IMG/VR virus record: IMGVR_UViG_3300008448_000127 | Span: 1 to 51,414 of that record | DNA from: a virus | Reading direction: 5' to 3' (one strand) | Length of the DNA: 51,414 nucleotides | Position numbers and translations under genes: made by a program | Shown: one piece after another, positions 15,375 to 49,015 of the stretch | How positions within the stretch are numbered: position 1 is the stretch's first letter | Layout: each line of letters begins with the position of its first letter | Notes under the pieces: generated by a model | Told to the model about the DNA's origin: nothing | The model's input: the letters and a program-made list of their open reading frames with translations, nothing else | Databases searched by the model: none

Positions 15375-16193
15375 TTATGCTTCTGGCAGGATCAGATCAT
15401 CGAACTTGACGTTCTTGATTGTCTTACCAGCACGTTCCAGTGTCACTGTTCCTGCGTCGTCGTCAGCATCGACGACTTTGAAAGTGAGTGGTTTTGGTGC
15501 CTTGGCTGGCTTGTAATCGACTTCAAAGCCAATCCAATCAGACGGATTGAATTCTGCTTCAGCATCGTCCTCAGCAGGCACGTCTTCCTCAGCGAGTTCT
15601 TCTGACCATTCATCGTCATCGACCGGGACATCGTCAACCACATCTTCCTGTTCGGCTTCATCAGTTTCTGAGGAAGAATAATCTTCATCGCTATCGACGT
15701 GACCGATGATGTTGAAGTAGAAGCCATCCTTCTTTTTGTTAGGGGCAACACGGATCTTAAACTGTTCACCGATCAACTTCTTCAGTTCAGCATCGATCTG
15801 CTCAGTTGTCATGTCCGCAGTTGGTACACCGAGGCACTGAATGTCAACCATCAGACGGTCCAGAGCCTGTTCGATCGTGCTACGATCAGAGTCATTCAGG
15901 CTATGGAACACACCGATGCGAGCACCGTTGTGCTTTTCCTGTCCTGCCACAGTTCCGTCAACATTGAACTCAAGGATGTAGTAGGTCTTACCGTCCTTGA
16001 CAATAATGGACGGACCTTTGAACTTAGTAATGTACTCACCGGGTTCTCCAGCAAAGTCACGATTACCGACTGCCTTCTTAGCCACTTCGACGTGCTTCTT
16101 CAGTCGAGCGTTGGCTTTCATCAATTGTGCGAGTGAGGTTACTTCTGCCATTTTAACAGCTTTCTTCCAATCAGAGTCAGTGAAGTTGGTCAT
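15375..16193 (-). CDS. Putative single-stranded-DNA-binding or recombination accessory protein (272 aa)
   Basis: The start overlaps the MazG-like gene by ATGA at 16193. The N-terminus is helical. The middle holds a beta-rich core (YILEFNVDG...RIGVFHSL), which could be an OB fold. From about 175 to 215 it is extremely acidic (DEAEQEDVVDDVPVDDDEWSEE, in parts), like the acidic tails of ssDNA-binding proteins. A final beta module (TFKVVDADDDAGTVTL) follows. Position next to a RecA/Sak4-like ATPase and a PD-(D/E)XK nuclease supports a DNA-binding role, but identity is not proven. Confidence 0.5.
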   Translation of the reverse strand: MTNFTDSDWKKAVKMAEVTSLAQLMKANARLKKHVEVAKKAVGNRDFAGEPGEYITKFKGPSIIVKDGKTYYILEFNVDGTVAGQEKHNGARIGVFHSLNDSDRSTIEQALDRLMVDIQCLGVPTADMTTEQIDAELKKLIGEQFKIRVAPNKKKDGFYFNIIGHVDSDEDYSSSETDEAEQEDVVDDVPVDDDEWSEELAEEDVPAEDDAEAEFNPSDWIGFEVDYKPAKAPKPLTFKVVDADDDAGTVTLERAGKTIKNVKFDDLILPEA

Positions 16194-16543
16194 TGTTTAT
16201 CGGCACGATTAACGGCGTCTGCGTTGGTGTATTTCAATGAGGAATACCGCTTTGATAACTTTTGGATATTTGCTTCTAAGCACTGTTCGCGTGTAATTGA
16301 CAGCCCTTGGCGAATGCCTTCTAGATAGAACTCTAAGTCACCAAGTTCTTCAATGACGTTGTCGAGGTCTAAGGCCTTGCGGTAAATAACGCGTTTCTTT
16401 ATTGCATCGAGAAGTTCACCAGATTCGCCACTAACACCAATTGCCATGTGCATTAAGTGAGCATCTTGGTCAGTAATTTCTTTTGCAATTTGCTCTCCGG
16501 GTTTTACAAGAGCGGAAACAAGTTCAGGGTGTGTAATAGACAA
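16190..16543 (-). CDS. MazG-like nucleotide pyrophosphohydrolase (117 aa)
   Basis: Shows GESGELLDAIKK (about residue 38) and VIEELGDLEFYLEGIR (about 63), the ExxE...ExxD metal-binding helices of the MazG/dUTPase-2 superfamily. It would hydrolyse (d)NTPs to monophosphates, possibly shifting pools during infection. The start codon appears to be TTG with GGAGAAG five bases before it, immediately after the upstream stop. It overlaps the next gene by ATGA. Confidence 0.8.
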   Translation of the reverse strand: MSITHPELVSALVKPGEQIAKEITDQDAHLMHMAIGVSGESGELLDAIKKRVIYRKALDLDNVIEELGDLEFYLEGIRQGLSITREQCLEANIQKLSKRYSSLKYTNADAVNRADKQ

Positions 16544-19241: not shown

Positions 19242-20489
19242 CTACGATGGAAGTGTAGATGCTGTTTTTGGCTTTCGCTTAGGCCGAGGTCGCTTTGCAA
19301 CGGTTTCGGCCTGTGGTGCTTCGAAGGAGTCCTCCCCGGATTCATCATATGCCAATTCTGCTCCAGCTTCTTCGCCATGACTTCCATCGTCAGTTTCAGG
19401 CTTTGATTCTTTTTGTGCTGCTGTTTCAGCTTTCTTAGCAGCAGCACGTTCGAACTGAGCAGTATGGTAACCATCGAACATAATAGGAAATTCATTGTAT
19501 TCCTTCCGCTCTTTGGCGGTTAGAGAGACATCAGAAACTTTCAATCCAGTTCGGTCTTCCAGCAAAGCCTTAACAGCTTTGACGTAAGGACCAACCCAAT
19601 CACGATCACGATCCTTACTGCCTGGCTCAGCCGTCAGCTTGTTCCAGTAACCAGCGAGTACCCAAGCTGGGTCACCCTTCTCGTAACCAGTACCAACTGC
19701 CAGAGCGTTCAGGAAGGAATCGATCTTGTCTGACACTGACTCGTCAATAACGATATCGGCGTACTCAGTATCGATTGATGCAACGTATGACAGTGCTGCC
19801 AAGTAAGGTAGGCTCATTTTCAAACCCTTGTTCCCACCATCGCTGTCGTTTGCGTCCAGAACCATAGTCACGAACTTGTGTAGTTCCGTGTGAGTATTCT
19901 GGATGAAGGAAAGCATTTCCGAGATTAGGAACTTAGGGGCGGAAGACACCACAGCACCACCATCGATTAACCATACAAGACGGGCAGCACCAGCGAGGGT
20001 CTTCGTCCAAGCCTTACGCTTCGCAACAGTTTCATTCCAGGCTTCTGGGATGATACTGTCAACGTAAGGATCGCGGAACAGGACATCGCTGTGGGATCGA
20101 GCCTTTCCGGTGTCCACAGTATCGGCAGTGTCGTGAGGAACACCGCTGATGATAACTGCGTCCCATTCAGTCTGAGCAACAGGCCAATCAAAGCCTTTCT
20201 CAATTTCCTGTTGGGCAAAGATCAGACCTTGTAGGCGATGCTGACCGGAGATCAGGTGTTCGTTACCTTCTTCATCAATGCTGAAGATCAGTGGTTCACC
20301 GTTACACTTCCACTGTCCTCTGAGCATTTCGTTTGCGTACAACTTGGCAACACCCTTGGACATTGGACGGTTGCTGTTGTTCATGTTCTTCAGGCACTCC
20401 AGAGCAAACTTTGAGTTTACTCGGACTACCTTGGACTTGATTGGAGACTGTGACTTGTCGGCCTTTGAGAGTAATGTGTCAAGTTTCAT
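19242..20489 (-). CDS. ParB/DGQHR-like domain protein (415 aa)
   Basis: Residues 35-85 hold SKGVAKLYANEMLRGQWKCNG then HLISGQHRLQGLI. This is the [DS]GQHRL loop of ParB/sulfiredoxin-fold proteins (DGQHR and DUF262-like), which bind nucleotides. The middle (about 120-310) is helical and of unknown role. The tail is a low-complexity Glu/Ala/Lys stretch ending in KRPRPKRKPK, likely nucleic-acid binding. It is the first gene after a possible promoter at 20541-20568. It may regulate DNA or act in replication; no defined function. Confidence 0.6.
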   Translation of the reverse strand: MKLDTLLSKADKSQSPIKSKVVRVNSKFALECLKNMNNSNRPMSKGVAKLYANEMLRGQWKCNGEPLIFSIDEEGNEHLISGQHRLQGLIFAQQEIEKGFDWPVAQTEWDAVIISGVPHDTADTVDTGKARSHSDVLFRDPYVDSIIPEAWNETVAKRKAWTKTLAGAARLVWLIDGGAVVSSAPKFLISEMLSFIQNTHTELHKFVTMVLDANDSDGGNKGLKMSLPYLAALSYVASIDTEYADIVIDESVSDKIDSFLNALAVGTGYEKGDPAWVLAGYWNKLTAEPGSKDRDRDWVGPYVKAVKALLEDRTGLKVSDVSLTAKERKEYNEFPIMFDGYHTAQFERAAAKKAETAAQKESKPETDDGSHGEEAGAELAYDESGEDSFEAPQAETVAKRPRPKRKPKTASTLPS

Positions 20490-20576: not shown

Positions 20577-21326
20577 TCACAATTTTTCTGAGTCGAATGA
20601 TTTCGTACGTGTTCTTTGCGTCATGAAGTTTCTGAGAGAGGAAATACGTTGTTCGGCAAGTGGGTCTACAGTGCCGTCAAGGTACGGTGTTGAGCGACCG
20701 CACCAGTTGCGTCCTGCAGGTCCAAGATGAAGGCATTCGAACGGTGGGCGTAGCTTGTGCTGCTTTGGCCAGAGTTGCTGAAAGAAGCTATCAGCACCAC
20801 CAGCGTGCCGCCAGTTTGTTTGATGCCATGGAGCCTGTGGCAGGTGCGGGTCGTTAGCATGGAAGATTTGAGTGTACCCTGCCCATTCAACTTGCTGTGG
20901 ATGGAGCGGATAAGACTTCCAGTAAGGCTCTTGGGGGATTCCTGCAGACAGATCCTCGCACATACGGCGAAGTGGTGTGTAAAGGTAACCTGGAGTTAAT
21001 GTGCCTCCACGATCTTGGTCACATAGTGAAGGGACAAACTTAGGCCAGAGTACATCAGCGTCCATGATACACAACCAACCATGGCGACCGAATTCGTCCA
21101 AGCCTTCTTCTAAGGCTTTGAATTTGTTAAACACAGCACCGTTGTCGTAGAATGCCTCGGTCATATGCACGCGAGCATTGTTTTGTAGGCCGATGTGTAC
21201 TGTACTCAGATCGCGTGGTGTTGTGACGATCATGACTTCAGCGAAGTGGTGTCGGTTGTACGCGAGAGTAATGGCAAGTAGATCGGAGTAATTAACGCAG
21301 ACGATGATAGCACGAAGGGGTGTCAT
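20577..21326 (-). CDS. Glycosyltransferase, GT-A fold (249 aa)
   Basis: Start at 21326 (MTPLRAIIVCVNYSD) with GAGG upstream; the longer reading would lie inside the methyltransferase gene. The N-terminal Rossmann-like strand (RAIIVCVNYSDLLAITLAYN) binds a nucleotide sugar. LCIMDADVLWP gives the DxD metal motif (about residue 90). HLGPAGRNWCGR near the end provides a His that could also bind metal. It is the last gene of the glycosylation cassette. Whether it sugars DNA, virion protein or a host glycan is not shown. Confidence 0.7.
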   Translation of the reverse strand: MTPLRAIIVCVNYSDLLAITLAYNRHHFAEVMIVTTPRDLSTVHIGLQNNARVHMTEAFYDNGAVFNKFKALEEGLDEFGRHGWLCIMDADVLWPKFVPSLCDQDRGGTLTPGYLYTPLRRMCEDLSAGIPQEPYWKSYPLHPQQVEWAGYTQIFHANDPHLPQAPWHQTNWRHAGGADSFFQQLWPKQHKLRPPFECLHLGPAGRNWCGRSTPYLDGTVDPLAEQRISSLRNFMTQRTRTKSFDSEKL

Positions 21327-21333
21327 GGTGACC

Positions 21334-21927
21334 TCATGGCTTATGAATGACGTAGGACCAGGGCATGTACGAAACAATTTCTGAGATGAAATATACATCC
21401 AGACCTTGGGACTCTGCGAACTTAAATACGGCAGGCTGGATGTACTGAGACCATCCATGGTTTACTTCATTGACGCACACAATATCATGACCAGCAAGCA
21501 ATCCACCAGATTTTATCTTAGGCCACCACAGATTGATATCTTCTGTGACGAATGGTTCTTCGTGGTTCCCGTCAAGGTATACGAAGTCCAGTTCGCCGTC
21601 CTCAAATAACTGTTCTGCTGCTCGTTTCGATGTCATTCGAAAGCCGCAGCATCGTGGGTTGTATGGCGTAATCAGTTCTTTGAAGTGCTGGAAGTCTTGG
21701 TTTCTATCAACGCTATCCCACAGGTACTTAGCCTGCTCCTTGTACTCCGGCAGATTTTCCCAAGGGTCCACACAGTATAGATTTCCTTCCGTCCAGTGCT
21801 CAAGTATTTTAGCGGCGAACTCTCCACGATGTGTTCCCACTTCAACACCAGTACCGTGGAGACCCAGCTTGTTGAGGTACAGCCCGAACTGATCACGACT
21901 GTCGATTTCAATCTTAGATATGATCAT
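21334..21927 (-). CDS. SAM-dependent methyltransferase, class I (197 aa)
   Basis: GVEVGTHRGEFA (about residue 28) is the SAM-binding motif I, and LYCVDPWE (about 50) motif II. LDFVYLDGNHEEPFVTEDINLWWPKIKSGGLLAGHD carries the metal/acid residues in the Methyltransf_24 pattern, typical of sugar O-methyltransferases. It overlaps the GT2 gene as TAATG, consistent with decorating a glycan made by the cassette. Polar motif at 21378. Confidence 0.8.
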   Translation of the reverse strand: MIISKIEIDSRDQFGLYLNKLGLHGTGVEVGTHRGEFAAKILEHWTEGNLYCVDPWENLPEYKEQAKYLWDSVDRNQDFQHFKELITPYNPRCCGFRMTSKRAAEQLFEDGELDFVYLDGNHEEPFVTEDINLWWPKIKSGGLLAGHDIVCVNEVNHGWSQYIQPAVFKFAESQGLDVYFISEIVSYMPWSYVIHKP

Positions 21928-22670
21928 TAGGATATCCTACAAACAAATTCTGGGATGAGACTTCCAAGATGGCGACGATGAATCTTGTTGTGTCGATCTC
22001 TGACAATAACGTATGTTGGTGAGGTTTCCTTACCGTCATGTTCTTCAATAAAGATTTCCCCACCATCCGAGAACACACGCAACCCATGACCAAAATAACT
22101 TCGAGCAAACTCAATCTTAGTCGGATCATGGTTTGATTGAGCTTCTGGGCTGAAGCAGTACGTATACAGTACTTCGCTTATGTGGTACCTTGAAGGTTTA
22201 CATATCTTAAGCAGTGGTCGGTACCATAACTGATCGTCTGCATAGCCTAGCTTGTCAGACCAGGCTACTCTGGTAGCAACACTTTTCTTCCAGGCACACA
22301 GATGGTTGGAAGACATATGCCCTATTTCAGGTTTGTCTTCATCGCTATCAAGAATCCACATTTCACTAAACTTAGGAGCGTGCCTTGCCATGTTGAAGCT
22401 AACTACATCAGCATTAGATTTGATGCCTTCGAGTAGTAGCTGTACGTACCAAGCACTAACAAAGTCGTCATCATCAACGAACGCAATGTACTCTCCTTGT
22501 GCTTCCTGAGTTAGATGATTACGTTTTGCACCGCTGGTTAGAGTACCAGCATCAGCAAACCAAAGAACTTCTACATCACCAACAAATCGGAGTGCTTGAT
22601 GCTGAAGTTCTTTGATCAGTGGAGCGTAGTGGCGTGATTCTAAGCACGGCACAAGGATGGATAGCTTCAT
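21927..22670 (-). CDS. Family 2 glycosyltransferase (247 aa)
   Basis: MKLSILVPCLESR (nucleotide-binding strand), GAKRNHLTQEAQGEYIAFVDDDDFV (about residues 47-73) with the DxD motif, and a C-terminal part with a WSDKLGYADDQLWYR acceptor-like segment. It transfers a sugar from a nucleotide sugar. In the cassette it lies next to a methyltransferase. Acceptor unknown. Confidence 0.8.
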   Translation of the reverse strand: MKLSILVPCLESRHYAPLIKELQHQALRFVGDVEVLWFADAGTLTSGAKRNHLTQEAQGEYIAFVDDDDFVSAWYVQLLLEGIKSNADVVSFNMARHAPKFSEMWILDSDEDKPEIGHMSSNHLCAWKKSVATRVAWSDKLGYADDQLWYRPLLKICKPSRYHISEVLYTYCFSPEAQSNHDPTKIEFARSYFGHGLRVFSDGGEIFIEEHDGKETSPTYVIVRDRHNKIHRRHLGSLIPEFVCRIS

Positions 22671-22671
22671 G

Positions 22672-23136
22672 TCAGCGTCTTGAATTTCTTCTTTGAGTTA
22701 CCCTGTCTGCCCAGCGACAGTTTTCTGGGCAGTAGTTACCATTGTTATCAATGCGATCGAGCGTCAGATTGGAGGGTCGCAACCCCATATCAGCAAAAAA
22801 GTTTTCAAATACTAACCATCGTTCACAGACCGTAATACCTCTTTCGCCATAGTGTTTATAGTCAGGGCATTTTTTGTTACGGCACCGCGACAGCATATTC
22901 ATCCATATGGTGTACTCGGTACTTCGTTTAGTCTTTACAGAACCTGACATTCCGTGGGTAGTAATTTTATCTAAATGGTAGCATCCACAAGAGGATGTAT
23001 TGCCGCTGGTCAGTGCGTACTTCGGAGCATATGTGACGCCTCCGCAAAGGCACTCGCATTTCCAAAGCAAGTGTCTGCCTTTTGTTTTTCCCTCTTGTGC
23101 AACAACAGTTAGCCTACCGAAAGTTTGACCAAGCAT
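22672..23136 (-). CDS. HNH homing-type endonuclease (154 aa)
   Basis: A Cys-rich N-terminus ([15 protein letters not shown]) is followed by a central [13 protein letters not shown] helix. The end, [23 protein letters not shown], is the HNH core of phage intron-less homing nucleases (DRIDNxGNYxxxNCRW). It sits between a GT2 and a radical SAM gene and may be a mobile insertion in the cassette. Start at ATG after GTAAATG with GGGGAAG upstream. Confidence 0.85.
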
Positions 23137-24060
23137 TTACTTCCCCAAGTATTGAACCACGATCCTATCCTTCTCCGGGGATAAGGTAGCAATATCTTCA
23201 AGTATGTGCAATAAATGCTTACTATTTTTCAGCTTAAAATTAGACATTTCTTCTGTGACGTGCGTTGCACTTTCATTTTGTGCAAGAGATCCGTGCCCGT
23301 TTAGAGGGACCAGGCAACGGTGACAATGGAACTCGACTTGTTTCTCGAAGTCCTGCATTGGTTTACGCCACCAACCTTTAGTTACTGACATACCTGTGTC
23401 TGGGTAATCAGGATTGTGCTGGTTCAGTATGGCTTGACTACCAGCGATCTCGCAAAAGAATGCTCGTAGCTCACCACGGAACTGGCACAGCATTGCACTC
23501 CAATGCCGATTGATAGGGCAGTTGCTGATTAGCTTCCAGCGTTCAGATTCTTCTGGGACGAACTTAGACATGTTGCCGTGGACTGGTGAGTGACGTGAGT
23601 CCTTGTCTAAACCAAATGGATGGGATTCTGGCCAGTCCTTTAGAAACTCGTGAAACGCTTCGTACTTCAAGTGTACGTTGAGGTTAGACATCGATGGATT
23701 GAATGTCTTCCTCATGACGGCACCATTACCACGAGGATGGTTACACCAAATACCGCATTTCTCTTTCGGAAAGTAGTTGCGGAGAATTGCACAGATATCT
23801 TCAAACTGTGGATGGAGTGCGGGATTTCCTCCAAAGATACCGATCAGTCCGAAGTATCCTTCCATGGACTGGAGTGCCAGTTCGAAGTTCTGGAGAGTAA
23901 TGAAGTCAGACTTTCCACCGAACTGTGAACCTTGTGTGCAGTTGCTGCACCCCAGATCGCAGGCACGGTTGAGATGGATCTGCATAACGCCGTTCATCCA
24001 TTTGCCCGGTCGTTGTGTTCCAGGAGGAATCATTTGTGCCAACGCTTCATGCTTGTTCAT
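23137..24060 (-). CDS. Radical SAM protein (307 aa)
   Basis: CDLGCSNC (about residue 33) is the Cx3Cx2C cluster that holds the 4Fe-4S site. IGIFGGNPALHPQF (about 75) is the GGEP-like SAM motif. The second half has further Cys (SNCPINRHW, AMLCQFRG, FHCHRCLV), suggesting an auxiliary cluster as in SPASM/twitch enzymes. It would use radical chemistry to modify a sugar, peptide or nucleobase. It is unusual in a phage among glycosyltransferases and overlaps one of them by 14 bases. Confidence 0.8.
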   Translation of the reverse strand: MNKHEALAQMIPPGTQRPGKWMNGVMQIHLNRACDLGCSNCTQGSQFGGKSDFITLQNFELALQSMEGYFGLIGIFGGNPALHPQFEDICAILRNYFPKEKCGIWCNHPRGNGAVMRKTFNPSMSNLNVHLKYEAFHEFLKDWPESHPFGLDKDSRHSPVHGNMSKFVPEESERWKLISNCPINRHWSAMLCQFRGELRAFFCEIAGSQAILNQHNPDYPDTGMSVTKGWWRKPMQDFEKQVEFHCHRCLVPLNGHGSLAQNESATHVTEEMSNFKLKNSKHLLHILEDIATLSPEKDRIVVQYLGK

Positions 24061-25108
24061 TGTAGATGTTCCTTAGTGCGTCAATTTGTTCAGTGAGCAG
24101 GAGGGTTTGAACTTTGTAGTCGTAGATGTTGCGAGCGTTACTTGCGTAGTGCCATTGGTGTTCGGGGTTCCAATGGGCAATGCAATCGAGGATTATCTTA
24201 CGTAGGTCAGACATTTCAATGTCAGGATGGACTCTTACCAGATTACCGTCGATTCCCGGCATAACGTCGTCGGCAGGTAGGTCAGTAATCACGATGCAAC
24301 CAGCAGCAGTTGCTTCGATAATCTTTCTGAGAGTGTAACCGTACATGCTGGACGTGCAGATGGCGACCTTAAACTCACTGAGGGTCTTCAGGTACTCTGG
24401 CGTGTTGCTTCCTCTACGATGGTATCCGGGGTGCTGCATATTAACAATAGGCATGTTGCGTTCAGCAAGGATACGCTTGCGTAGAGGGTAGGCACTAGAC
24501 ACTGCACCGGACATTAAGCAGCCACCTACACGCTCCGTATTGAATTCTGGAACAATCAACGGATCAAGTGTGTGGTACGTACGAATCAGATGCTGCTTGC
24601 GAGTGTACGGTGCCAGATGGTTGACAATGTCTTCGTGGTAGTAACATATCCACGCATGGCAACCCATTTCAGCAGCAGCCTCCGAGTGCCAGGCTGGACC
24701 TTGGTGCGAATCCTTTAGGATAGTCAATTTGAAGATATCGCTACGTTCAGCGAGGTAGTTGACATTGTGGAAGCGAGCGTTATGATCCCTGAAGTTTCTG
24801 GGATCGAAATGCCACTCACGTTTGTCCTGAATGACGAGCGTGTTGGGTGGGTATGCAGTTACCAATTTTCGAACGTCTGTGCATTCAATTGGTAAGGCAT
24901 AACCACAGTGTAGGTACCCGTTCTGGGCAAGACCGTGAGTGATCTGCCATCCTTCATCGGTCATGTGGTCCTTCATGGAGGCGACTCCGAGGACCAGACG
25001 GTGCTCACCAGCATTTAGTACTTCGGAGTACTTCGGTGCTGGTAGTTCAGGCGTAGCAGGTTTGGGCAGGGACGCGATAACGTCCGCAACTGTGCGAGGG
25101 GGCAGCAT
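24047..25108 (-). CDS. GT-B-type glycosyltransferase (353 aa)
   Basis: Starts MLPPRTVADVIASLPKP. It resembles GT4-like proteins in its second half: FKVAICTSSMYGYTLRKIIEATAAGCIVITDLPADD (about 270-305) matches the sugar-nucleotide-binding region with the E-x-x-A-x-G core. The N-terminal half (HRLVLGVASMKDHMTDEGW) would form the acceptor domain. Coupled with the radical SAM gene. Acceptor unknown. Confidence 0.65.
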   Translation of the reverse strand: MLPPRTVADVIASLPKPATPELPAPKYSEVLNAGEHRLVLGVASMKDHMTDEGWQITHGLAQNGYLHCGYALPIECTDVRKLVTAYPPNTLVIQDKREWHFDPRNFRDHNARFHNVNYLAERSDIFKLTILKDSHQGPAWHSEAAAEMGCHAWICYYHEDIVNHLAPYTRKQHLIRTYHTLDPLIVPEFNTERVGGCLMSGAVSSAYPLRKRILAERNMPIVNMQHPGYHRRGSNTPEYLKTLSEFKVAICTSSMYGYTLRKIIEATAAGCIVITDLPADDVMPGIDGNLVRVHPDIEMSDLRKIILDCIAHWNPEHQWHYASNARNIYDYKVQTLLLTEQIDALRNIYNEQA

Positions 25109-25122
25109 GGGGATGCTTTCTG

Positions 25123-26448
25123 TCAGGACATAAAATCAGGATCGAAACACTTGGATAGAGGGTGCTTGCGGTTACCGATAGACGACACTTCACCAGTATG
25201 CTGCACAAGTGAAGGATTATGTACGTACTCAGTCCACCCAGCATGGTGCATGGCAGTTACGACAGCACCGTCAATCGACTTAAAGCCTTTCTGTGAGTCA
25301 TAAACTCTTGTCTTCATGTGCGGGCTATTGAGAAGTACCTGAACGGCTTCATGACTGAACACCAGGGCAACTGCACCTCGACCAAGTTGGTACCCTTGTG
25401 GAGCACGAGCAGCAGGTACCCATCCCTTTGTCTTTACCTGCTGAACCATATCGTCATTCTCCATGAATGTAAATAGGTTCCAGTATCCTTTTTCGGGATA
25501 CGTGCATTTTGTCAAATAGGCACGTAAATTGCGTACGCACACAAAGTCATCCTGGAAGATAGCGTAGTACTGACACCATGGATCTCGAAGGTACATCTCC
25601 TGAAGAGTCAAGTACCAGTGAGCATAAGGTCCAATGTTGCTTCCACGGTAAGCGTACGTGTAACCCTGAAGCCAGTCAAATGACCCATCGTTTGGTCCGT
25701 CAACTGCAATAACAGGATCGTCGAAACCAGCAGCTTCCAGACTTTCCAGTGTAGATGGCAGCGAGTTGATTCTGGTCGGAACAGTAGTTACAGAGTACGT
25801 CCAGCGACCTGTAACCCACGGTACGGTAGTTGTAATTCTTTCGAGACCACCATTGACAAACTTGATCTCTTTACGAACCAATTCTTCGTAATCAGTGGTT
25901 GTAATGATTCTGCGATCAAAGTGCGGACTGAGGTTACCTAGTTTAATTGGGATATTAGAGGGTTTTGCCCAGGATTGAATACGCTTGACGTTTCCTTCAT
26001 GGACTGTGCCTACGACAACTTCTGAGGCAGGAACTTGTACTGGTGCCATCATTCGTATCTCACAGGCTTCTACGATCCATGAACGTACGATTTGAGAGGC
26101 AAGTGAAGGAGCGAGACGAGCAGCAAGCCTTTGGTACCACTTTGCTGCAATACGCTGCCCTCTGGCAACAATGCTATCGGCTAGTGGAATTGCTTGCCGT
26201 AACACCTGAGCAGGTGTCATGTAGTCAAGACGATCGATTTCTGCTTTACAGTCTGAGCACGGTACTTCGTTGCCGGTTTCTCGTTTGATAATTGCGTGCA
26301 GGCGAGTACCGATACCGCTGGGCGTCCGTACAAGGGTCTCTGCCTTTGGTGGCACGTTCCAACCTGCTAAAGCTGCTTTGTAGGCTTCAGCTTTGGGTCC
26401 GCCTTTATCGATCTCGTCTTGCCACACTTTGGGGATTTTGCGTTGCAC
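25123..26448 (-). CDS. Two-domain glycosyltransferase (441 aa)
   Basis: Starts at GTG with GAGGAAGA 5-8 bases before it. The N-terminal 110 residues (KVWQDEIDKGGPKAEAYKAALAG... PCSDCKAEIDRLDYMTP) form a helical domain with a Cys pair. The C-terminal 230 residues have WTYSVTTVPTRINSLPSTLESLEAAGF, VIAVDGPNDG and YYAIFQDDFVCV (DxD), typical of a GT-A glycosyltransferase. The N-terminal part may anchor it to another protein. It is the first enzyme of the cassette, right after the tail genes, so virion glycosylation is a reasonable guess. Confidence 0.65.
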   Translation of the reverse strand: MQRKIPKVWQDEIDKGGPKAEAYKAALAGWNVPPKAETLVRTPSGIGTRLHAIIKRETGNEVPCSDCKAEIDRLDYMTPAQVLRQAIPLADSIVARGQRIAAKWYQRLAARLAPSLASQIVRSWIVEACEIRMMAPVQVPASEVVVGTVHEGNVKRIQSWAKPSNIPIKLGNLSPHFDRRIITTTDYEELVRKEIKFVNGGLERITTTVPWVTGRWTYSVTTVPTRINSLPSTLESLEAAGFDDPVIAVDGPNDGSFDWLQGYTYAYRGSNIGPYAHWYLTLQEMYLRDPWCQYYAIFQDDFVCVRNLRAYLTKCTYPEKGYWNLFTFMENDDMVQQVKTKGWVPAARAPQGYQLGRGAVALVFSHEAVQVLLNSPHMKTRVYDSQKGFKSIDGAVVTAMHHAGWTEYVHNPSLVQHTGEVSSIGNRKHPLSKCFDPDFMS

Positions 26449-26450
26449 GG

Positions 26451-26618
26451 TTACTCTTCCTCAAGGACCGCTACTTGTTGTGCCTGAGCGTACGCTTCGT
26501 GCCTATCTCTGATTTCCAGAACGGCTTCAATCTGCTCTGAGGTGAAACCACTTAATGCGTACTGCAAGTGCTGGGATATTACAACGGCAAGGATACTAAC
26601 CAGAATAACGTATCTCAT
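26451..26618 (-). CDS. Small membrane-anchored protein (55 aa)
   Basis: MRYVILVSILAVVISQHL... has an N-terminal hydrophobic helix, then a helical region rich in Glu/Gln/Ala (QIEAVLEIRDRHEAYAQAQQ). It overlaps the tail gene by ATGA. Role unknown. Confidence 0.6.
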   Translation of the reverse strand: MRYVILVSILAVVISQHLQYALSGFTSEQIEAVLEIRDRHEAYAQAQQVAVLEEE

Positions 26619-27196
26619 AGTGTCTCATATACCAAAAAGCTGAGGCATATCGTCGGGTGCTGGATTGGCGGTTGTGGTGGTACTGCCGGGAACACAACAC
26701 TTGACATGCCGGGAAGAAAGCAAACAGTACCGGCTAGAAGGATAGGATTGCAACTGACTCGTGTCAAGAGACTGTCAGACGGAATGAAATCAGGGCTTGG
26801 AGTTCCGACACTGGCACAGCGTCTGAATTCAATACCCCATCCATTTCCTGGTGTACATTGGATGGCAACTTGAAAACAAAAGTACCAAGTTGCTGTCATT
26901 GTCGAATTTGTGGGGTCAAGCCAAACGCATGTTGCATTGATTGTACCAAGACCCCAACGACCATTAGCTACGAGAGTAACCGTAGTGCTACCTTCGAAGC
27001 AACCGTACGTGGTGTCATCGGTCGTCATTTCAATTGTTAAAGTATTTGGTAGTGGATTCTCTGACGGGTCTCCTGTACAAGTTGGTTCTTCGGCAGAGTG
27101 AACCGACCCCGGATAACAACGACTAGGGCAGCATGTCGCTTCTTCTCCACAACCGCAACCGCACAGCAATATCGCTTCAAGTTGGTTTGATGGCAT
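26615..27196 (-). CDS. Cys-rich minor tail/appendage protein (193 aa)
   Basis: The start is the ATG at 27196 overlapping the upstream stop as TGATG; longer readings run through the upstream gene. MPSNQLEAILLCGCGCGEEATCCPSRC has eight Cys in the first 35 residues. A Thr/Ser-rich beta domain (TLTIEMTTDDTTYGCFEGSTTVTLV) and a Pro-rich end follow. It is likely a virion tip or baseplate part because of its position downstream of tail genes; the Cys pattern may bind metal or form disulphides. Confidence 0.55.
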   Translation of the reverse strand: MPSNQLEAILLCGCGCGEEATCCPSRCYPGSVHSAEEPTCTGDPSENPLPNTLTIEMTTDDTTYGCFEGSTTVTLVANGRWGLGTINATCVWLDPTNSTMTATWYFCFQVAIQCTPGNGWGIEFRRCASVGTPSPDFIPSDSLLTRVSCNPILLAGTVCFLPGMSSVVFPAVPPQPPIQHPTICLSFLVYETL

Positions 27197-28170
27197 CAGG
27201 GGGTTCCTGTACCTACAGGGCAAGATGTTTGGACACCAGGACAGTACACACCTTCTGTAATATACGTGTCGCAGCGAACCAGTTTTACTGACTGTGCACC
27301 ATTCAATGTGCAGCACTCGTAAAATCTGTCTGGGATTCCAATGAGATCGTAGCCACCTGATACAATCATCCATACGGATACTTGAGGTATCGCAGTGCCC
27401 GTACCAGTTCCGGGTACAGGAGCAGGATCGTCTGCAGTATCGCCTAAATCGGATACGATGATGTGTGCACCGATCGGCAGTAATAGTTTTCTGGGATCAT
27501 AGACGTAAATTAAGCTACCGTCACCATCAACAACAGTTCGTGTTGGTTGGACAAGCGTACCACATACGGCATCGCCGTCGTTAGCAGCCGTACCGACAGG
27601 TAGCTCATTCTCTCCGTACAGCAAACTGCACAGGTCGCATTCGTTCGTCAGGGCACTGCCCGTACCAACACCAGATATAGTGCCTGTACCAGTTTCTGAG
27701 AAGGAAGGGATTGTGAACCGTGGGTTGGCAGACAGATTTGCGGTATAGTAACCATTACCCAGGCACTGAGTAATGCGGGCGTGACGGTTGTTGCCTGACG
27801 CAGCGGTTATAGGTGACCATTCTGACTCGTTTCGTATAACAAGTATTACGTCGTTAATTGCTGCAGAAAAGGTTGGGAATCGGTTTGTTACATCGATCAA
27901 ACCTTCATCTGTTGTGGAGTCCTCCATATCAAGGCTGTCGGTTAAGACAGGCTGAAGGTATCGGAGGATTCTACCTTGTGCAGTAGTGTAACCTGTACGT
28001 GGATCAGTCGCAGCAGCGAGACTCTCTGTAAGAACCACATAGTACAAGTCGTTATGGATTGTTTTGTCACGGGTGTTGTCCGCTAGAGGTTGTCGGTACC
28101 TATTACCTAAGACACGGCGACCGATCTCGATCGTGTCTTCCAGCGTAAAGATTCCAAGTTCTCTGGTCAT
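27196..28170 (-). CDS. Tail-associated protein with Gly-Thr repeats (324 aa)
   Basis: The sequence is beta-rich with many GTGTG/GTGTP stretches (PGTGTGTAIPQ, TGTGTISGVGTG), and ends in CPVGTGTP. It lies after the 363-residue tail protein and is coupled to it by ATGA. Probably a distal tail or tip component. No domain recognised with certainty. Confidence 0.55.
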   Translation of the reverse strand: MTRELGIFTLEDTIEIGRRVLGNRYRQPLADNTRDKTIHNDLYYVVLTESLAAATDPRTGYTTAQGRILRYLQPVLTDSLDMEDSTTDEGLIDVTNRFPTFSAAINDVILVIRNESEWSPITAASGNNRHARITQCLGNGYYTANLSANPRFTIPSFSETGTGTISGVGTGSALTNECDLCSLLYGENELPVGTAANDGDAVCGTLVQPTRTVVDGDGSLIYVYDPRKLLLPIGAHIIVSDLGDTADDPAPVPGTGTGTAIPQVSVWMIVSGGYDLIGIPDRFYECCTLNGAQSVKLVRCDTYITEGVYCPGVQTSCPVGTGTP

Positions 28171-29258
28171 GGTATTGCCAAACTGTGAGTTTCAATAAAC
28201 CCTGTAAGGTCAGCTTCTTCTGGGAATAACGGATCAATAATGAAGAAATCTGTTTCTGGATCGGCAGCGTTCATCAAATTGAAAGGGTATGCTGTTCCAT
28301 CTGGTTGCAGCGGCCAAGGTGCTTTAGCTAAGTCACCACGGTTATTGATGGGGATTGGTCCGTAGGCTACAGCACCACCTGCCCCCGCAACGAGTTGCTG
28401 CGTGTGCATCGACACTCTTCGATTGGCTTCTCTAAAGTAACCTTCTGGTGATTCTACAGCGGTTCTATCATCAACAACAAACACAGCAGTTATGGTGATG
28501 TAATGCCATGTTCCGTTTGATCCTGCTTGCCCTGCAGGGATAGCAACTCCTGTAGTACGATAATTCTCAACGCAGCTTATTGATTCACAGAACACATGCT
28601 TGATTGGGGCATCGTAAAAGTCGTCTACAGCTGCTTCATTTATTTTTCCAATATAGGGGTCGATATCGGTCTTATAGTTGAATCCTGTCGCTTGGACATT
28701 CCAAGTAAACTGGTGTACCTGCAACTGTAGAGGAAGGTCAATGCCTTCAGTTAGTGGTAGGAAGTTAGCGTGTACAAGTGGGGCACCTGTTGAGTCCTTG
28801 TACCGTGTTGTTGAGACTTGTCTTGTAGACGAGTGCCAAATAACAGGTTCTTCCCACGGGCGTATTACAACTTGCTTAGGAGTTGCTGTTCCTGTCGAGT
28901 CGATGACTCTTGTAGGTACCCTTCCAATGGCTCCTGGAGGAGAAGTATTAAGGAAGTTTGCTGTCTCGTACTCAAGCTCAACAAGCCAGTAGGGCCTTCC
29001 TTCTGTATGTTCTTTAACAGAGGGTGCTGACTTCAGAATTAAATCGGATCTTTCTGGGTGGTAACTTAATCCGATTGTAAAGGTAGGCTCTGGAGTCGTA
29101 CCGAAATCGTACGCAGGTAAAGCTGCCTGAACGTCTACGATGTCCTCCAGTGGTGAGTCCATCTCGATTAGGCAGGTTTCACGAATACGAACAACGCCCC
29201 AAGTCGCAGATAGCACTTGCGGTTGCAGTAAAAACCCATGAATAGTTTTAAGGCCCAC
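28167..29258 (-). CDS. Tail protein downstream of tape measure (363 aa)
   Basis: GTG start with AGGAGGTTAGT upstream. It begins MGLKTIHGFLLQPQVLSAT. Position directly after the tape measure is where distal tail or tail-hub proteins are encoded in siphoviruses. The sequence is beta-strand-rich without a diagnostic motif. Variant polar-motif copies at 28217, 28252 and 29051. Confidence 0.55.
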   Translation of the reverse strand: MGLKTIHGFLLQPQVLSATWGVVRIRETCLIEMDSPLEDIVDVQAALPAYDFGTTPEPTFTIGLSYHPERSDLILKSAPSVKEHTEGRPYWLVELEYETANFLNTSPPGAIGRVPTRVIDSTGTATPKQVVIRPWEEPVIWHSSTRQVSTTRYKDSTGAPLVHANFLPLTEGIDLPLQLQVHQFTWNVQATGFNYKTDIDPYIGKINEAAVDDFYDAPIKHVFCESISCVENYRTTGVAIPAGQAGSNGTWHYITITAVFVVDDRTAVESPEGYFREANRRVSMHTQQLVAGAGGAVAYGPIPINNRGDLAKAPWPLQPDGTAYPFNLMNAADPETDFFIIDPLFPEEADLTGFIETHSLAIP

Positions 29259-29259
29259 A

Positions 29260-31755
29260 CTAACCTCCTGGGACTACGTTGACTCGTGGTGCCTGAGCAC
29301 CCTGCTCCACGAGTTGCCGTTGGATTTCTATGAGAGTATCGAGTCGTTCAACTTGGGCATCACGCGGACCAAATTGTGCTTTGAACATCTGCTCAAATGC
29401 TTTAGCTTGAGCTTCGTACGTGTTTTGCTCCAGACCTTGTGCGTACCCTGGTTTCCTAAGTTGATCGATCTCTTTTTGCACTTGCTCCAACTGCTGGTTC
29501 ATAAACTCTTGAGTAAACGCTTCTTCGCTTATCGGCAGTTGAGGCCCAACAAATGCAGTATCGATTCCAGAGAACGCAGCTTGCTCGTCTCTGATACGCT
29601 TCATTTCCCGTTCCGCTTCAGACATACGCATACTCTCAAGTTCTTCACGCATACGCTGTTGGCGTTCGCGGGTTGCCATACCTTCAATCTCCACTGCTCT
29701 TTGGTTAGCAAGGAGTAATTGGTTGGCAATCTCCAGTTGCTTCTTACGCTCCTCAGTCATATGCTCTTGTTGACTGATTAGCTCTTCAGCAATCTTCTTT
29801 TGCAACTCCATGTTTTCTTGCAGGTCAGTAACATTAGGATGGTATATCTCCTGTAGAGCATTGAGGAGATCAGGATCTGTCAGTTTGCCCTTAAGATTTT
29901 CAAGAGCACTGACATCCATTACCTGGTTGTAATCGCCAAAAAAGTCAGAGATACCTTTGTCTGGTCCAGTCATAATGTCGTGCATGTTGCGAAGTCTTGC
30001 CAACATTACTTGCTCGTTACCGGCAATGGCGGCTTCTCTTGCAGCAGCATACTGAGCCTTAAGTTCTATCGCAGCTTCTTTTTGACCTTGTGTGCCATCT
30101 ATGATCATATTATTGATGCGACGCTGAAAGTCAAATACAGCTTCCTGACCTCCCATAAGGCCTTCAAAGTATGCAGCATTGGCACCTTCACGTTTCATTT
30201 CCTCTTGAGCCATGATCTCATCGAGGCGTGCTTGTTCCTTTTTTAACTCTGTTATTTTTTGTTCAACCTCTTCGCGAGACTGCATATCCTGAATAGCGGT
30301 TGCTTCGTCTTCGAATTGATGACGTAGTTTAGTCATCTCTCCAAGACGTTCTGTTTCTTTACGAAACTCTTCTAATGCTTTGGTTGCTTTATCTGCAGCA
30401 TCTTCAGTGTCCATCAGGTAACGAGTAAGCAAGCCGATGCCAATAAGAACTGCAGGTACACCAAATCCAGCAAGGGCACCCATTGCAGCGTTAGCACCAA
30501 ATACAGATCGAGCAACCATAGATAGGTTGTTCGATGCTGACATGAGTGCCATGTTCATGCCGCCGCCCATGCTAAGAACTTGGATGAAGTCTTCAGCAGC
30601 ATAGGATGCTTGAGTAATAGCAGCACCAGCACCACCAAAACCGCCAGCAGATGCCTGAGCAATTCTGGTAGAGTAAGCTACGGCATCAGCATGTTCCTGC
30701 TGGGTGATGATGTTTCTGGAGAGCATTGCGTCATACTCAACCAGTCGAGCAGTGTGTAATTGCTCTGCTGTCATTAGTTGACGACGAAGACCGATAGCCT
30801 CACGTTCAAGACGGTTCGCTTCTTCCACATCATCTACGTACGCTCGTACTGTTCTCAGAGTATTTTCTGAGACAGGAATACGTCCGCCAACTGTTGAAGC
30901 CTGCATGTCTCCAGCATTCGCACCGGCACGGAATCGGGCAGCATCTTCTTCAATACGCTTTTGTGCTTTGAAGGCAGCAGCTACACGTCGATTCTGCTGC
31001 TCAGTGTAATGCTCAGCTTCTTCTTCCGTTAAGCGTTGCTGCTCAACTGCAGCACGAGCACGGGCCTGAATATCTTCCCGCAATGCCTTAATACGATCGG
31101 CTTCCTGTTGCTCCTGGTACTTGCGTTCCTGTTCGGTAACGCGAAGTGTGTGAGCAGCAGACTCTGATGCCAGGCGATCCTTCTCAGCGTAGAAAGCTTC
31201 CAGTGTTTGGCGTTGCTGGTTAACAATACGGTTCCAAGCAGCGTCCATGAAGCCTTGCGTTTCCGCATCAGCTTTATTGACAGCAGCTTCTTCAGCAGCG
31301 TCCTGTGCAGCGTAGCGAGCAACAACGGCTTCCTGCAGCATTCTGGAGAATGCAATCTGCTTTTGCGTCTCTTCCTCGATCGCAGTTGTTAGCCTGCGTT
31401 CGTTAGATACTGCTTCGTTGTACGTATTGATGTTAGCCTGCTGAACAGCAACAGCAGTCTCACGAGCAATTCGTTCACGGGTAGCAGCTTCTTCCTGAAG
31501 GACATTCTCCTTCTGCTGTTCCAGTTTGTACCAAGCCTGGAACTCACGTTCATTTTCGGTAGCATACCATTTGTTGAACTTCTCTTCAGCTTCCATTTTT
31601 TGCTGAAGGTTGATTTCACGCTCTACTGCTTCGGCTTTAGCGATCTCACGCTGTGACTGAAGAATGACGGCATTGGCTGCAGCCATACCTGTAGCAACGC
31701 CGGTAGCGTCAACGCCAAGTTTGATCGCGAAATCATTGATGCTTTCGCTTGCCAT
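29260..31755 (-). CDS. Tape measure protein (831 aa)
   Basis: The longest gene of the tail module. Residues 1-330 and 450-800 are charged, Gln/Glu/Ala-rich coiled coil. A central Gly/Ala-rich hydrophobic stretch at about 370-460 (GGFGGAGAAITQASYA, FGVPAVLIGIGLLTRYLM) gives one or two membrane-crossing helices, as tape measures have. It sets tail length and helps DNA exit. Start MASESINDFAIKLGVDATG overlaps the end of the tail-chaperone frame by 23 bases. Strong motif copies at 30713, 30864 and 31817 (the last just upstream of this gene, in the chaperone extension). Confidence 0.85.
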   Translation of the reverse strand: MASESINDFAIKLGVDATGVATGMAAANAVILQSQREIAKAEAVEREINLQQKMEAEEKFNKWYATENEREFQAWYKLEQQKENVLQEEAATRERIARETAVAVQQANINTYNEAVSNERRLTTAIEEETQKQIAFSRMLQEAVVARYAAQDAAEEAAVNKADAETQGFMDAAWNRIVNQQRQTLEAFYAEKDRLASESAAHTLRVTEQERKYQEQQEADRIKALREDIQARARAAVEQQRLTEEEAEHYTEQQNRRVAAAFKAQKRIEEDAARFRAGANAGDMQASTVGGRIPVSENTLRTVRAYVDDVEEANRLEREAIGLRRQLMTAEQLHTARLVEYDAMLSRNIITQQEHADAVAYSTRIAQASAGGFGGAGAAITQASYAAEDFIQVLSMGGGMNMALMSASNNLSMVARSVFGANAAMGALAGFGVPAVLIGIGLLTRYLMDTEDAADKATKALEEFRKETERLGEMTKLRHQFEDEATAIQDMQSREEVEQKITELKKEQARLDEIMAQEEMKREGANAAYFEGLMGGQEAVFDFQRRINNMIIDGTQGQKEAAIELKAQYAAAREAAIAGNEQVMLARLRNMHDIMTGPDKGISDFFGDYNQVMDVSALENLKGKLTDPDLLNALQEIYHPNVTDLQENMELQKKIAEELISQQEHMTEERKKQLEIANQLLLANQRAVEIEGMATRERQQRMREELESMRMSEAEREMKRIRDEQAAFSGIDTAFVGPQLPISEEAFTQEFMNQQLEQVQKEIDQLRKPGYAQGLEQNTYEAQAKAFEQMFKAQFGPRDAQVERLDTLIEIQRQLVEQGAQAPRVNVVPGG

Positions 31756-45270: not shown

Positions 45271-45322
45271 TGTGCTTGCCCTGTTGCTATGTTGTCGCTA
45301 TGGTACCAACAAGGGGGTTACT

Positions 45323-45709
45323 ATGAGCCGACTTAGCCGAAAGATAATCAGACCTAAGAGAAAATGCAAGATCGCTACTGATGCCTTTGCACATTTTCTG
45401 AGGAAGAATCCAACTAAGGCTGAAGCCTACTTCTGGAAACACCTGAAAAAGAGGCAGAAAGAATGGCAACACCAGTTTGTACAACAGGCTGTTGTTTACG
45501 GTTACATACCTGACTTGTACTGCGAGTCACTACACTTGATTGTAGAGATTGATGGACTGATCCATAAACGCAAAGACGTTAAGCGTCGTGATGCTCTGAG
45601 GACAAGAAGATTAAAGAAGCACGGCATTACTGTGGTGCGGTTCACCAACTCACAAGTGTTTGGCAACCCACATGCTCTCATCAGTCTTCTGGAAGAAGTA
45701 TGCGATTAA
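45323..45709 (+). CDS. DUF559-family, Vsr-like endonuclease (128 aa)
   Basis: Start at ATG 45323 after AAGGGGGTTACT. NPTKAEAYFWKHLKKRQ (about residue 31) is the N-terminal helix of DUF559. GYIPDLYCESLHLIVEIDGLIH holds Asp and Glu-x-Asp, and RTRRLKKHGITVVRFTNSQVFGNP the final strand. The family shares the very-short-patch-repair nuclease fold and probably nicks or cuts DNA. A lone plus-strand gene in a minus-strand zone, ending 4 bases into its convergent neighbour. Contains a strong polar motif at 45395 read in frame on its coding strand (FLRKN). Confidence 0.75.
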   Translation: MSRLSRKIIRPKRKCKIATDAFAHFLRKNPTKAEAYFWKHLKKRQKEWQHQFVQQAVVYGYIPDLYCESLHLIVEIDGLIHKRKDVKRRDALRTRRLKKHGITVVRFTNSQVFGNPHALISLLEEVCD

Positions 45710-47215: not shown

Positions 47216-47563
47216 ATGACAGAAGATAGTAAGGTACCAATCAAGCTACACGTTAATGGTCAGTTTGTTGGGTACATCGAAAAGTTGGAGTATGAACGGC
47301 CAGTGCAGGAATTGCCGTCTGTGGACGGTTATGCCCGGTTTGCTCCTGGTAATGAGATCAGGCTAAGTGTTGAACTTACTACGCCAGTAAGTTTGCAGGA
47401 AAAGTGGAGGTTGGTGGAAAAGGGTGAGGAAGTACGGGACACAGACGAGTGGTATAGTGTAGTAGAAATGCAATGGTATCCGCTGTCTATGTTCTATCCA
47501 AACATTGATTGTAAACTGGCTGATGACGATCTTTACCGTAGAAAGGTTCTGGTGTGTGTATGA
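47216..47563 (+). CDS. Hypothetical protein with recurrent small module (115 aa)
   Basis: Start at 47216; its ribosome site GGAGAAAGAG is part of a polar-motif copy (47201). The second half, EKWRLVEKGEEVRDTDEWYSVVEMQW, is the xWRLVxxGExxxxTDEWYS module found in several other genes of the window. No catalytic residues are evident. It overlaps thyX by ATGA. Confidence 0.65.
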   Translation: MTEDSKVPIKLHVNGQFVGYIEKLEYERPVQELPSVDGYARFAPGNEIRLSVELTTPVSLQEKWRLVEKGEEVRDTDEWYSVVEMQWYPLSMFYPNIDCKLADDDLYRRKVLVCV

Positions 47564-48396
47564 CGTTTAACGCAAAGATACTGGCAGACAGTACCAACAC
47601 GCTTGGTAACCGTTTGCTCACAATGGAAATGACTTATCCTCGGTTTGTTCATGCAGAGCATCTGAGGCATAGGATGTTTTCGTTCAACGTAGCATCCAGT
47701 AGGGCTATCCCTGTGGAGAAGATGATTGAGCAGGTAGAGAAGAATCCTGTCATTCCGATTCATTGGGGCAAGGCTCAGCGGGGGATGCAGGCTTACGAGC
47801 AGTTTACTGGTGTTGATGCGAATGAGTGTGTAGATCGATGGTTAACCGCCAGAGACTATGCTCTCGGTGCAGCAGAAGGGATGCTCGATCAAGGTCTGCA
47901 CAAACAGATCATCAATCGCATTCTGGAACCGTGGATGTGGTGTACCGTCATCTGTACCGGCAACATTGGTGCTTGGAATAACTTCTGGGCACTAAGGTGT
48001 CATCCAGAAGCTGAACCGCATATCAGGAAGATTGCGGAAATGACTGAAGGCATTGCTCGAAACAACGTCAGTCATCAACTTGCTGAAGGTGAATGGCATC
48101 TGCCATTGATTGGGTTTGACGGTGACGGTGAACTCAGCTTTGAGGACGCTGTGAAGGTGTCTGCTGGTCGTTGTGCTCGGGTTAGCTACTTAACGCACGA
48201 CGGCCAGAGAGATGTTCAGGCTGATATTGCTTTGCATGATCGATTGATTGCATCAAAGCATTTTAGTCCTACTGAGCACCAGGCACAGAATGTGAGCAAC
48301 TTGGCTTATGGTGCATGGGCTAATGGTAGTCTTGGTGATGGGTGGATGCAGTACAGAAAGACTCTGAAAGGAGAGTATCAGAATGAAAGTAGGTGA
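47560..48396 (+). CDS. thyX: Flavin-dependent thymidylate synthase (278 aa)
   Basis: Start at the ATG 47560 of an ATGA overlap. LRHRMFSFNVASSRAIP (about residue 34) is the ThyX motif RHRxxSxNxxSxR. NIGAWNNFWALRCHPEAEPHIRKIAE (about 138) and HQLAEGEWHLPL support the fold. It makes dTMP from dUMP with FAD and methylene-folate. It shows that the phage supports its own thymidine supply and lies beside a dNTP diphosphohydrolase-like gene. Confidence 0.92.
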   Translation: MTFNAKILADSTNTLGNRLLTMEMTYPRFVHAEHLRHRMFSFNVASSRAIPVEKMIEQVEKNPVIPIHWGKAQRGMQAYEQFTGVDANECVDRWLTARDYALGAAEGMLDQGLHKQIINRILEPWMWCTVICTGNIGAWNNFWALRCHPEAEPHIRKIAEMTEGIARNNVSHQLAEGEWHLPLIGFDGDGELSFEDAVKVSAGRCARVSYLTHDGQRDVQADIALHDRLIASKHFSPTEHQAQNVSNLAYGAWANGSLGDGWMQYRKTLKGEYQNESR

Positions 48397-49015
48397 TGGG
48401 TATAGACAATTGATGCGAAGTGACATAATTAGCGAAGGTGATGAGTGGTATGACTCTTTCGGTATATGGCACCCTGTAAGTGGAAGTACGATAGGTCAGG
48501 GGTATTGGACCTATGCAGGACGCTGCATAAGACGTAAAACGGAAAATAAAGTTGAGACTTCTCCTGCACCAGAACATACTAAGGAATCCAATCCGAAGGA
48601 TGCCATCGGTAGTACCAAGCCTCCAATTGCCAATGTTCCTCTCTCAGTACTTTCTGAGGTAGGAATGGCACTGGCTGAAGGTCAGTACAAGTATGGAGGG
48701 TACAACTGGCGTGTGATCGGGGTAAGGGCATCAGTCTATTGGGATGCCACATTCCGTCATATCAAGGCTTGGTGGGAAGGTGAGGACGTTGATCCAGACA
48801 GCAAGCTGAGCCATATCACAAAGGCTATCAGTGCTCTGATGGTTTTACGTGATGCTATGATTCAGGATAACTGGACTGATGATCGTCCTCCCAGAAGTAA
48901 GCAGAAGCCTGAAGAGGTTGCTGCGATGTACAAAGAAATGTTGGAACGGTTGAAAAGTCTTCAGCCTGATCCGGTACCGGGATATACTCAGAAAGGAATT
49001 GAAGATGTCAAGTGA
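48383..49015 (+). CDS. dATP/dGTP diphosphohydrolase-like (DUF5664) protein (210 aa)
   Basis: Residues 70-150 read NPKDAIGSTKPPIANVPLSVLSEVGMALAEGQYKYGGYNWR...YWDATFRHIKAWWEGEDVDPDSKLSHI. This is the DUF5664/dGTP-diphosphohydrolase N-terminal pattern of phages. The enzyme type turns dATP and dGTP to monophosphates. The N-terminus (YRQLMRSDIISEGDEWYDS) carries the recurrent GE/GDE module. No PurZ-like gene was found, so base-Z synthesis is not implied. Overlaps neighbours. Strong polar motif at 48651. Confidence 0.75.
   Translation: MKVGDGYRQLMRSDIISEGDEWYDSFGIWHPVSGSTIGQGYWTYAGRCIRRKTENKVETSPAPEHTKESNPKDAIGSTKPPIANVPLSVLSEVGMALAEGQYKYGGYNWRVIGVRASVYWDATFRHIKAWWEGEDVDPDSKLSHITKAISALMVLRDAMIQDNWTDDRPPRSKQKPEEVAAMYKEMLERLKSLQPDPVPGYTQKGIEDVK

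Follow-up and report, generated by a model that had tools for sequence, protein, structure and literature searches.

A phage glycosyltransferase cassette with a near-constant twitch-type radical SAM enzyme: a candidate locus for exchangeable virion glycans

A cassette in which glycosyltransferase genes are joined to a gene for a radical S-adenosylmethionine (SAM) enzyme was analysed in the 51,414-base IMG/VR virus record IMGVR_UViG_3300008448_000127, referred to here in its entirety as the window. The radical SAM enzyme was found to be a near-obligatory core component of this cassette, and in several relatives it shares a single open frame with a glycosyltransferase domain. It is highly probable that the cassette builds a glycan and that its radical SAM enzyme acts on carbohydrate; given this, a virion protein is favoured as the acceptor at somewhat better than even odds. 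The reading as a whole, i.e. a cytosolic glycan-assembly cassette with a radical SAM enzyme acting on sugar, a virion acceptor and a glycan that is exchanged as a block, is assigned a probability of roughly 0.5. Glycosyltransferases are widespread in phages, mostly without an explanation. In the present cassette, they are tied to a radical SAM family with predicted carbohydrate-active twitch enzymes; if the virion is the acceptor, these phages would possess an allelic locus for surface glycans whose synthesis involves oxygen-sensitive radical chemistry.

Organization of the cassette

The window was identified as that of a tailed phage, as it encodes terminase, portal, capsid and neck genes, together with a family A DNA polymerase and a primase-like gene; the matches of its terminase, polymerase and capsid are distant and come from mixed hosts. 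The cassette runs on the minus strand from 26448 to 20577, with virion genes on one side and a ParB-like gene, which opens a replication block, on the other. In order of transcription, its genes are as follows:

25123..26448, minus strand: GTN, a small N-terminal Cys domain followed by a GT-A-fold glycosyltransferase-like domain with an FQDD motif (alignment and AlphaFold2 model)
24047..25108, minus strand: GTB, a GT-B type glycosyltransferase (PF13524 in 12/23 family members)
23137..24060, minus strand: twitch-type radical SAM enzyme, the near-constant cassette core (cysteine motifs, AlphaFold2 model, Pfam matches in relatives)
22672..23136, minus strand: HNH endonuclease gene, an insertion (PHROG 374, E 1e-58)
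21927..22670, minus strand: GT2-family glycosyltransferase, accessory, inserted with the HNH gene (PF00535, E 2e-7)
21334..21927, minus strand: class I methyltransferase (Methyltransf_24), optional (PF13578, E 7e-17)
20577..21326, minus strand: GTA, a GT2-like glycosyltransferase with a DAD motif, the last cassette gene (PF13704 in 15/35 family members)

All seven open reading frames (ORFs) exist, and their junctions range from an overlap of ~14 bases to a gap of 14 bases, in agreement with the sequence-only reading of this DNA, which had described a tightly coupled cassette directly after the tail genes.

Association of the radical SAM enzyme with glycosyltransferases

Scans of the viral collection yielded 19 loci with the radical SAM family and 50 loci with the GTA family; with a broader radical SAM profile, the relatives encoded in a single virus collection numbered at least 272, of which 79 loci were fetched (loci and contigs are given as L numbers). 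Chance or misannotation was rejected as an explanation of the cassette, since its syntenic arrangement recurs in dozens of further viral contigs. In the lineage of the window (L003, L010, L011, L013, L016, L018 and L019), tail genes are followed by one or more variable Cys-rich proteins, GTN, GTB, radical SAM, GTA and the ParB-like gene. A second lineage (L005-L009, L012, L015 and L020) keeps the radical SAM, methyltransferase and GTA genes amid mostly different neighbours, and a third set has the ParB-like gene on the opposite strand, the cassette still being located after virion-type genes in most members.

The radical SAM family of the window was present in 21 of the 25 long contigs chosen for GTA, and three more (L052, L059 and L066) encode a different radical SAM enzyme with a SPASM domain, the Pfam matches coming from the homologs in L046 and L059. 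Thus, 24/25 long GTA contigs carry a radical SAM gene of either kind. Reciprocally, among 52 non-redundant radical SAM loci flanked by at least 4 kb in each direction, 45 encode GTA, GTB or GTN; of the other seven, at least five have glycosyltransferase-like neighbours or fusions. The sequence-only reading had called a radical SAM member rare, which these counts contradict for this cassette.

The strongest link between the two enzyme types is provided by single-frame fusions. The radical SAM enzyme was found fused to a GT47 exostosin domain in L144/L145 (PF03016, E 5e-29 and 3e-33), to a GT2-like domain in L134, L136 and L137 (C-terminal in L116) and to GTA in L101. The radical SAM enzyme co-occurs with glycosyltransferases, is fused to them and can be replaced by a member of a second radical SAM family, three findings that together point to one glycan chemistry. 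Distance matrices of the radical SAM enzyme and the glycosyltransferases were also correlated (r 0.40-0.62, Mantel p 0.0005), for which common phage ancestry alone would suffice.

At the sensitivity of the search, 50,697 deposited phage genomes yielded no clear relatives, and no cultured phage with the cassette was found. Among named phages, neither GTN nor GTA had a relative, and the radical SAM enzyme had only a 26% identical stretch in a cyanophage. No cellular relatives emerged when 84,980 species genomes were scanned twice by pattern, a type of scan that misses distant homologs.

Glycosyltransferase families

Taken singly, the GTN, GTB and GTA proteins of the window had no match in Pfam or PHROG; at the level of the family or the model, each matched a glycosyltransferase family or fold. 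Glyco_trans_1_2 (PF13524, GT-B type) was matched by 12 of 23 GTB members, and Glyco_tranf_2_4 (PF13704) by 15 of 35 GTA members, in whose alignment D89 and D91 are invariant. The GTA start was moved to ATG 21326 (249 aa) on the basis of the alignment of relatives, because the upstream ATG 21458 sits within the methyltransferase gene and the added residues are not conserved. QDD is invariant in the GTN alignment, and the AlphaFold2 model of GTN (predicted local distance difference test, pLDDT, 61; N-terminal third unreliable) was matched by Foldseek to GT-A enzymes (best E 4e-5), including SpsA, the galactofuranosyltransferase AfGfsA and a PBCV-1 capsid glycosyltransferase (2p73). The accessory GT2 directly matched Glycos_transf_2 (PF00535, E 2e-7). 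Accordingly, the four glycosyltransferases previously proposed at 20577, 21927, 24047 and 25123 hold at family or fold level, that at 21927 directly by Pfam.

The N-terminal ~130 residues of GTN form a small domain with the consensus GLGxxxxxALxxVGITxERVSxWLGxPCxCxERxxKLNxLG. It also occurs alone (L042:785-1069) and in other virion-region proteins (e.g. L013:6302-7336), and is perhaps a docking module.

The radical SAM enzyme has a twitch-type cysteine layout

The window protein matched Radical_SAM (PF04055) at E 1.5e-5, which alone is below the cut-off, and PF04055 was matched by 29/30 members of the family, bearing out the earlier assignment. The CX3CX2C motif (C34, C38 and C41) is conserved in 32 of 33 sequences, and four auxiliary cysteines (C181, C203, C246 and C249) are invariant in all 33. 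In the AlphaFold2 model, these auxiliary cysteines bracket a β-hairpin formed by strands 189-194 and 197-201, as well as the end of helix 235-248, so that a Cys before and after the hairpin is followed by CX2C after the helix, with no further SPASM cysteines. Such a cysteine layout is described for twitch domains whose auxiliary cluster is fully ligated, BtrN being an example (PMC6231123); BtrN performs a two-electron oxidation of a cyclitol (PMC9012708). Foldseek placed SpeY first (E 1e-4), followed by MoaA and BtrN (E 2.5e-3), and the sequence profile matched BtrN weakly (E 0.075). In view of the twitch cysteines, the fusions to glycosyltransferase domains and SpeY and BtrN among the best fold matches, the enzyme probably oxidises or epimerises a sugar, a proposal that leans mainly on the fusions.

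We propose that GTN, GTB and GTA, joined in the window by the acquired GT2, would use host sugar nucleotides to assemble a short sugar chain. The radical SAM enzyme would abstract hydrogen from a sugar carbon and oxidise it from alcohol to ketone, or, by the same chemistry, bring about epimerisation or deoxygenation, after which the methyltransferase, where present, may cap a hydroxyl. The likeliest acceptor would be a virion protein of the tail end, either that encoded at 27196-28170, which has Thr-Gly/Ser-rich stretches, or the adjoining Cys-rich protein.

Exchange of inner cassette genes as a block

Comparison of L015 with L046 revealed DNA of 94% identity up to base 7779 of L015, followed by 3.7 kb (2.5 kb in L046) with nothing in common, after which 86% identity resumes at 11480, which is the start of GTA. 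Identical exchange borders were observed for L005 versus L062, L006 versus L046 and L008 versus L046. One block encodes radical SAM 1 and Methyltransf_24 along with a double glycosyltransferase and a methyltransferase-like protein, and the other a Methyltransf_24-like protein, a second enzyme of the radical SAM/SPASM type and a GT2; the tail genes upstream of the exchanged blocks are unchanged. The exchange of the inner block is an allelic replacement of functionally similar sets, a pattern as would be expected, by analogy with serotype switching, for a glycan under diversifying selection. The glycan would then differ between phages through exchange of the inner genes, and may have a role in immune or receptor escape. 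These data suggest that these phages make a sugar coat that is unusual and chemically altered, and that is swappable like a serotype. At slightly less than even odds, we extend this to a widespread group of uncultured tailed phages, whose virions would carry glycans in which radical SAM chemistry has rendered a sugar keto, epimerised or deoxy, the radical SAM enzyme being the constant core and the exchangeable inner block representing a viral 'serotype' locus.

Candidate acceptors

The genes that flank the cassette are as follows:

29260-31755: tape-measure-like gene, a virion gene preceding the cassette
28167-29258: virion gene, likewise preceding the cassette
27196..28170, minus strand: virion-region protein with a Cys-rich C-terminus and Thr-Gly repeat stretches, a putative glycan acceptor
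26615..27196, minus strand: Cys-rich, variable, virion-like protein of 193 aa, a candidate acceptor or adhesin (68% identical homolog in L006)
19242-20489: ParB-like gene, beyond the GTA end of the cassette

In L003, L006, L010, L011, L013, L016, L018 and L019, a homolog of the protein at 27196-28170 is encoded immediately before the cassette, and repeats of the (TG)n, (SA)n or (SG)n type occur in relatives. The adjoining Cys-rich gene starts at 27196 and is coupled to the preceding stop. Its homolog occupies the equivalent position in another phage lineage (L006:6360-6929) amid far more divergent neighbouring genes, which suggests the recent exchange of a putative adhesin. A small ORF with one hydrophobic segment (MRYVILVSILAVVISQHLQYALSG...) is located between the Cys-rich gene and GTN (~26450-26625, minus strand).

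ORFs carrying four or more alternating Ser/Thr-Gly/Ala units numbered 12 within 5 kb upstream of the cassette, compared with one elsewhere, in counts that include related phages; this corresponds to 0.267 versus 0.0065 per 1000 residues, an ~40-fold higher density, with varied codons. The cassette follows distal tail or virion genes in most related contigs. No protein encoded by the window's cassette contains a clear membrane segment of the sort expected of the flippase and lipid-linked sugar transferases of Gtr-type serotype conversion; in the relatives, a single GTA member and a single GTN member are marginally at the threshold for such a segment. The cassette position, the lack of clear membrane segments and the upstream Ser/Thr repeat density together favour a virion protein as the acceptor.

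Alternative explanations

The cassette may instead sugar a modified DNA base as protection against restriction, the radical SAM enzyme and methyltransferase further altering the base adduct. Phage glycosyltransferases have a known role in such hypermodification, and in the lineage of the window the replication genes and the ParB-like gene come after the cassette. The window also has ThyX and a dATP/dGTP diphosphohydrolase, and a gene of the thymidylate synthase/hydroxymethylase family (PF00303) occurs in seven relatives. No base-activating partner was, however, consistent across the 25 GTA contigs, some of which may be incomplete: PF00303 was encoded in 7/25, ThyX in 5/25 (the window having ThyX only) and a C5-methylase in 1/25, with 13/25 lacking both PF00303 and ThyX. 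Nor did any base-hydroxylating or hydroxymethylating enzyme consistently track with the cassette in these contigs, the TET search having run without a working control. In many relatives, the cassette comes after virion genes, and the ParB-like gene is on the other strand. DNA hypermodification is considered unlikely, albeit the foremost of the alternatives. Modification of a host surface polysaccharide during infection, which would block superinfection or aid virion release in the manner of serotype conversion, is a shade less probable. Block exchange does resemble O-antigen serotype switching, and accessory glycosyltransferases match capsule-synthesis families (Caps_synth, and Stealth weakly). 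The absence of clear membrane segments argues against it, as do the position of the cassette after late virion genes, the lack of a flippase or polymerase gene among those seen in the cassettes and the lack of an integrase among the annotated window genes, for which part of the ORFs were scanned.

We attach the lowest probability of the three, again a small one, to peptide modification, whereby the radical SAM enzyme would epimerise or thioether-link a Cys-rich virion protein, akin to a ribosomally synthesised and post-translationally modified peptide, and the glycosyltransferases would sugar its Cys or Ser residues to yield a virion-borne glycopeptide. Cys-rich proteins are indeed encoded upstream of the cassette, but not in all lineages, and the fusion partners of the radical SAM enzyme are glycosyltransferase domains rather than peptide-recognition domains, none of which was noticed, nor was a small precursor gene. 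The weak profile similarity to the peptide-modifying enzymes YydG/EpeE (E 0.006) fits this proposal, whereas the best fold matches are sugar or cyclitol dehydrogenases. SunS-like S-glycosylation by GTA was rejected: a smaller alignment of GTA gave SunS at E 0.27, and a larger alignment lost the match.

Several observations weigh against a virion glycan bearing a sugar altered by the radical SAM enzyme. The Twitch/SPASM fold is no predictor of the reaction (PMC6231123), YydG/EpeE and QueE rank slightly above BtrN in the sequence profile (all weakly), and the whole-fold TM-score is only 0.47 for a moderate AlphaFold2 model (pLDDT 71.5). L047, the sole exception among the long GTA contigs, encodes GTN-GTB-GTA without a radical SAM enzyme. 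As regards the acceptor, the Ser/Thr repeats of the window itself are short, with none reaching four units, and Thr-Gly or Ser-Ala repeats may merely be flexible linkers. Since the tail proteins remain constant while cassette alleles are swapped, the acceptor would have to be generic or located elsewhere, and in L064 and L067 the cassette comes after the terminase gene. Of the virion or tail glycan that the sequence-only reading had suggested, the glycan-building cassette is retained, and the target stands as the favoured one.

Comparison with known systems

SpeY and BtrN of spectinomycin and butirosin biosynthesis, which oxidise antibiotic cyclitols or sugars, share with the phage enzyme the CX3CX2C core and the four auxiliary cysteines around a β-hairpin and CX2C. 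The likeness is at fold level: the phage enzyme is only marginally similar in sequence, is viral and is embedded in, or fused to, glycosyltransferases. Other phage radical SAM genes in BFVD (Podoviridae sp. ctIKM86 and Campylobacter phages CPt10/CP20/CP21) have the fold in common, but sequence identity is low (16% for the best match). Glycosyltransferases and radical SAM enzymes both appear, as separate entries, among the auxiliary genes reported to be enriched in Tasman Sea phages (PMC7150976), and no report joining the two in one phage cassette was found in the literature.

Virion glycosylation in mycobacteriophages (Freeman et al. 2023, as cited in PMC12619734) likewise involves phage-encoded glycosyltransferases, which, in the description given there, act on capsid or tail tube proteins; the comparison is by description only. 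Pathways of phage DNA hypermodification (glycosylated hydroxymethylcytosine, hypermodified thymine) also combine phage glycosyltransferases with tailoring enzymes, but the present cassette lacks a consistent base hydroxylating or hydroxymethylating enzyme. Chlorovirus PBCV-1 encodes cytosolic glycosyltransferases and methyl-caps its virion capsid glycan; it is an unrelated virus, and the resemblance, through the GTN match to 2p73, is at fold level only. To our knowledge, no radical SAM enzyme has been described for mycobacteriophage virion glycosylation, and we know of none in PBCV-1 capsid glycan synthesis.

Accessory genes and further observations

The methyltransferase is an optional component of the cassette. 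It is present in the window, as proposed earlier, and in L002, L003 and L004, is missing in the close relatives L010, L011, L013 and L018, and in L016/L019 its position is occupied by a 3'-phosphoadenosine 5'-phosphosulfate (PAPS)-reductase-like gene (the L019 call being made via similarity to the L016 protein). Methyl capping, to which the sequence-only reading gave too much weight, would thus apply to only some of these phages. That reading had also regarded the HNH gene as the sole insertion. No HNH gene is located between the radical SAM and methyltransferase genes in L002, L003 and L004, and, because radical SAM, methyltransferase and GTA are directly consecutive in L002 and L004, both HNH and GT2 are interpreted as insertions in the window. 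GT2 is missing in the closest relatives and was found in the L064, L065 and L067 cassettes.

A sulfotransferase-like P-loop protein (FVTGTGRCGS, recognized by eye) is encoded within the cassettes of L064 (4598-5176) and L067 (3779-4318); together with the PAPS-reductase-like genes of L016/L019, it hints at sulfated glycans in some relatives. In the close relative L013, a 2-oxoglutarate-Fe(II) oxygenase (PF13640, E 3e-10; L013:7355-7927) is encoded immediately before GTN.

With respect to nucleotide metabolism, the window encodes a ThyX-like thymidylate synthase followed by the dATP/dGTP diphosphohydrolase (PF18909) at 47554-49015 (plus strand), and MazG at 16190-16543. The PF18909 family includes MazZ of 2-aminoadenine phages; PurZ was absent among the window genes scanned. 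Near the right end of the window, a DUF559 endonuclease-like protein (E 4e-22) is encoded at 45272-45709 on the plus strand.

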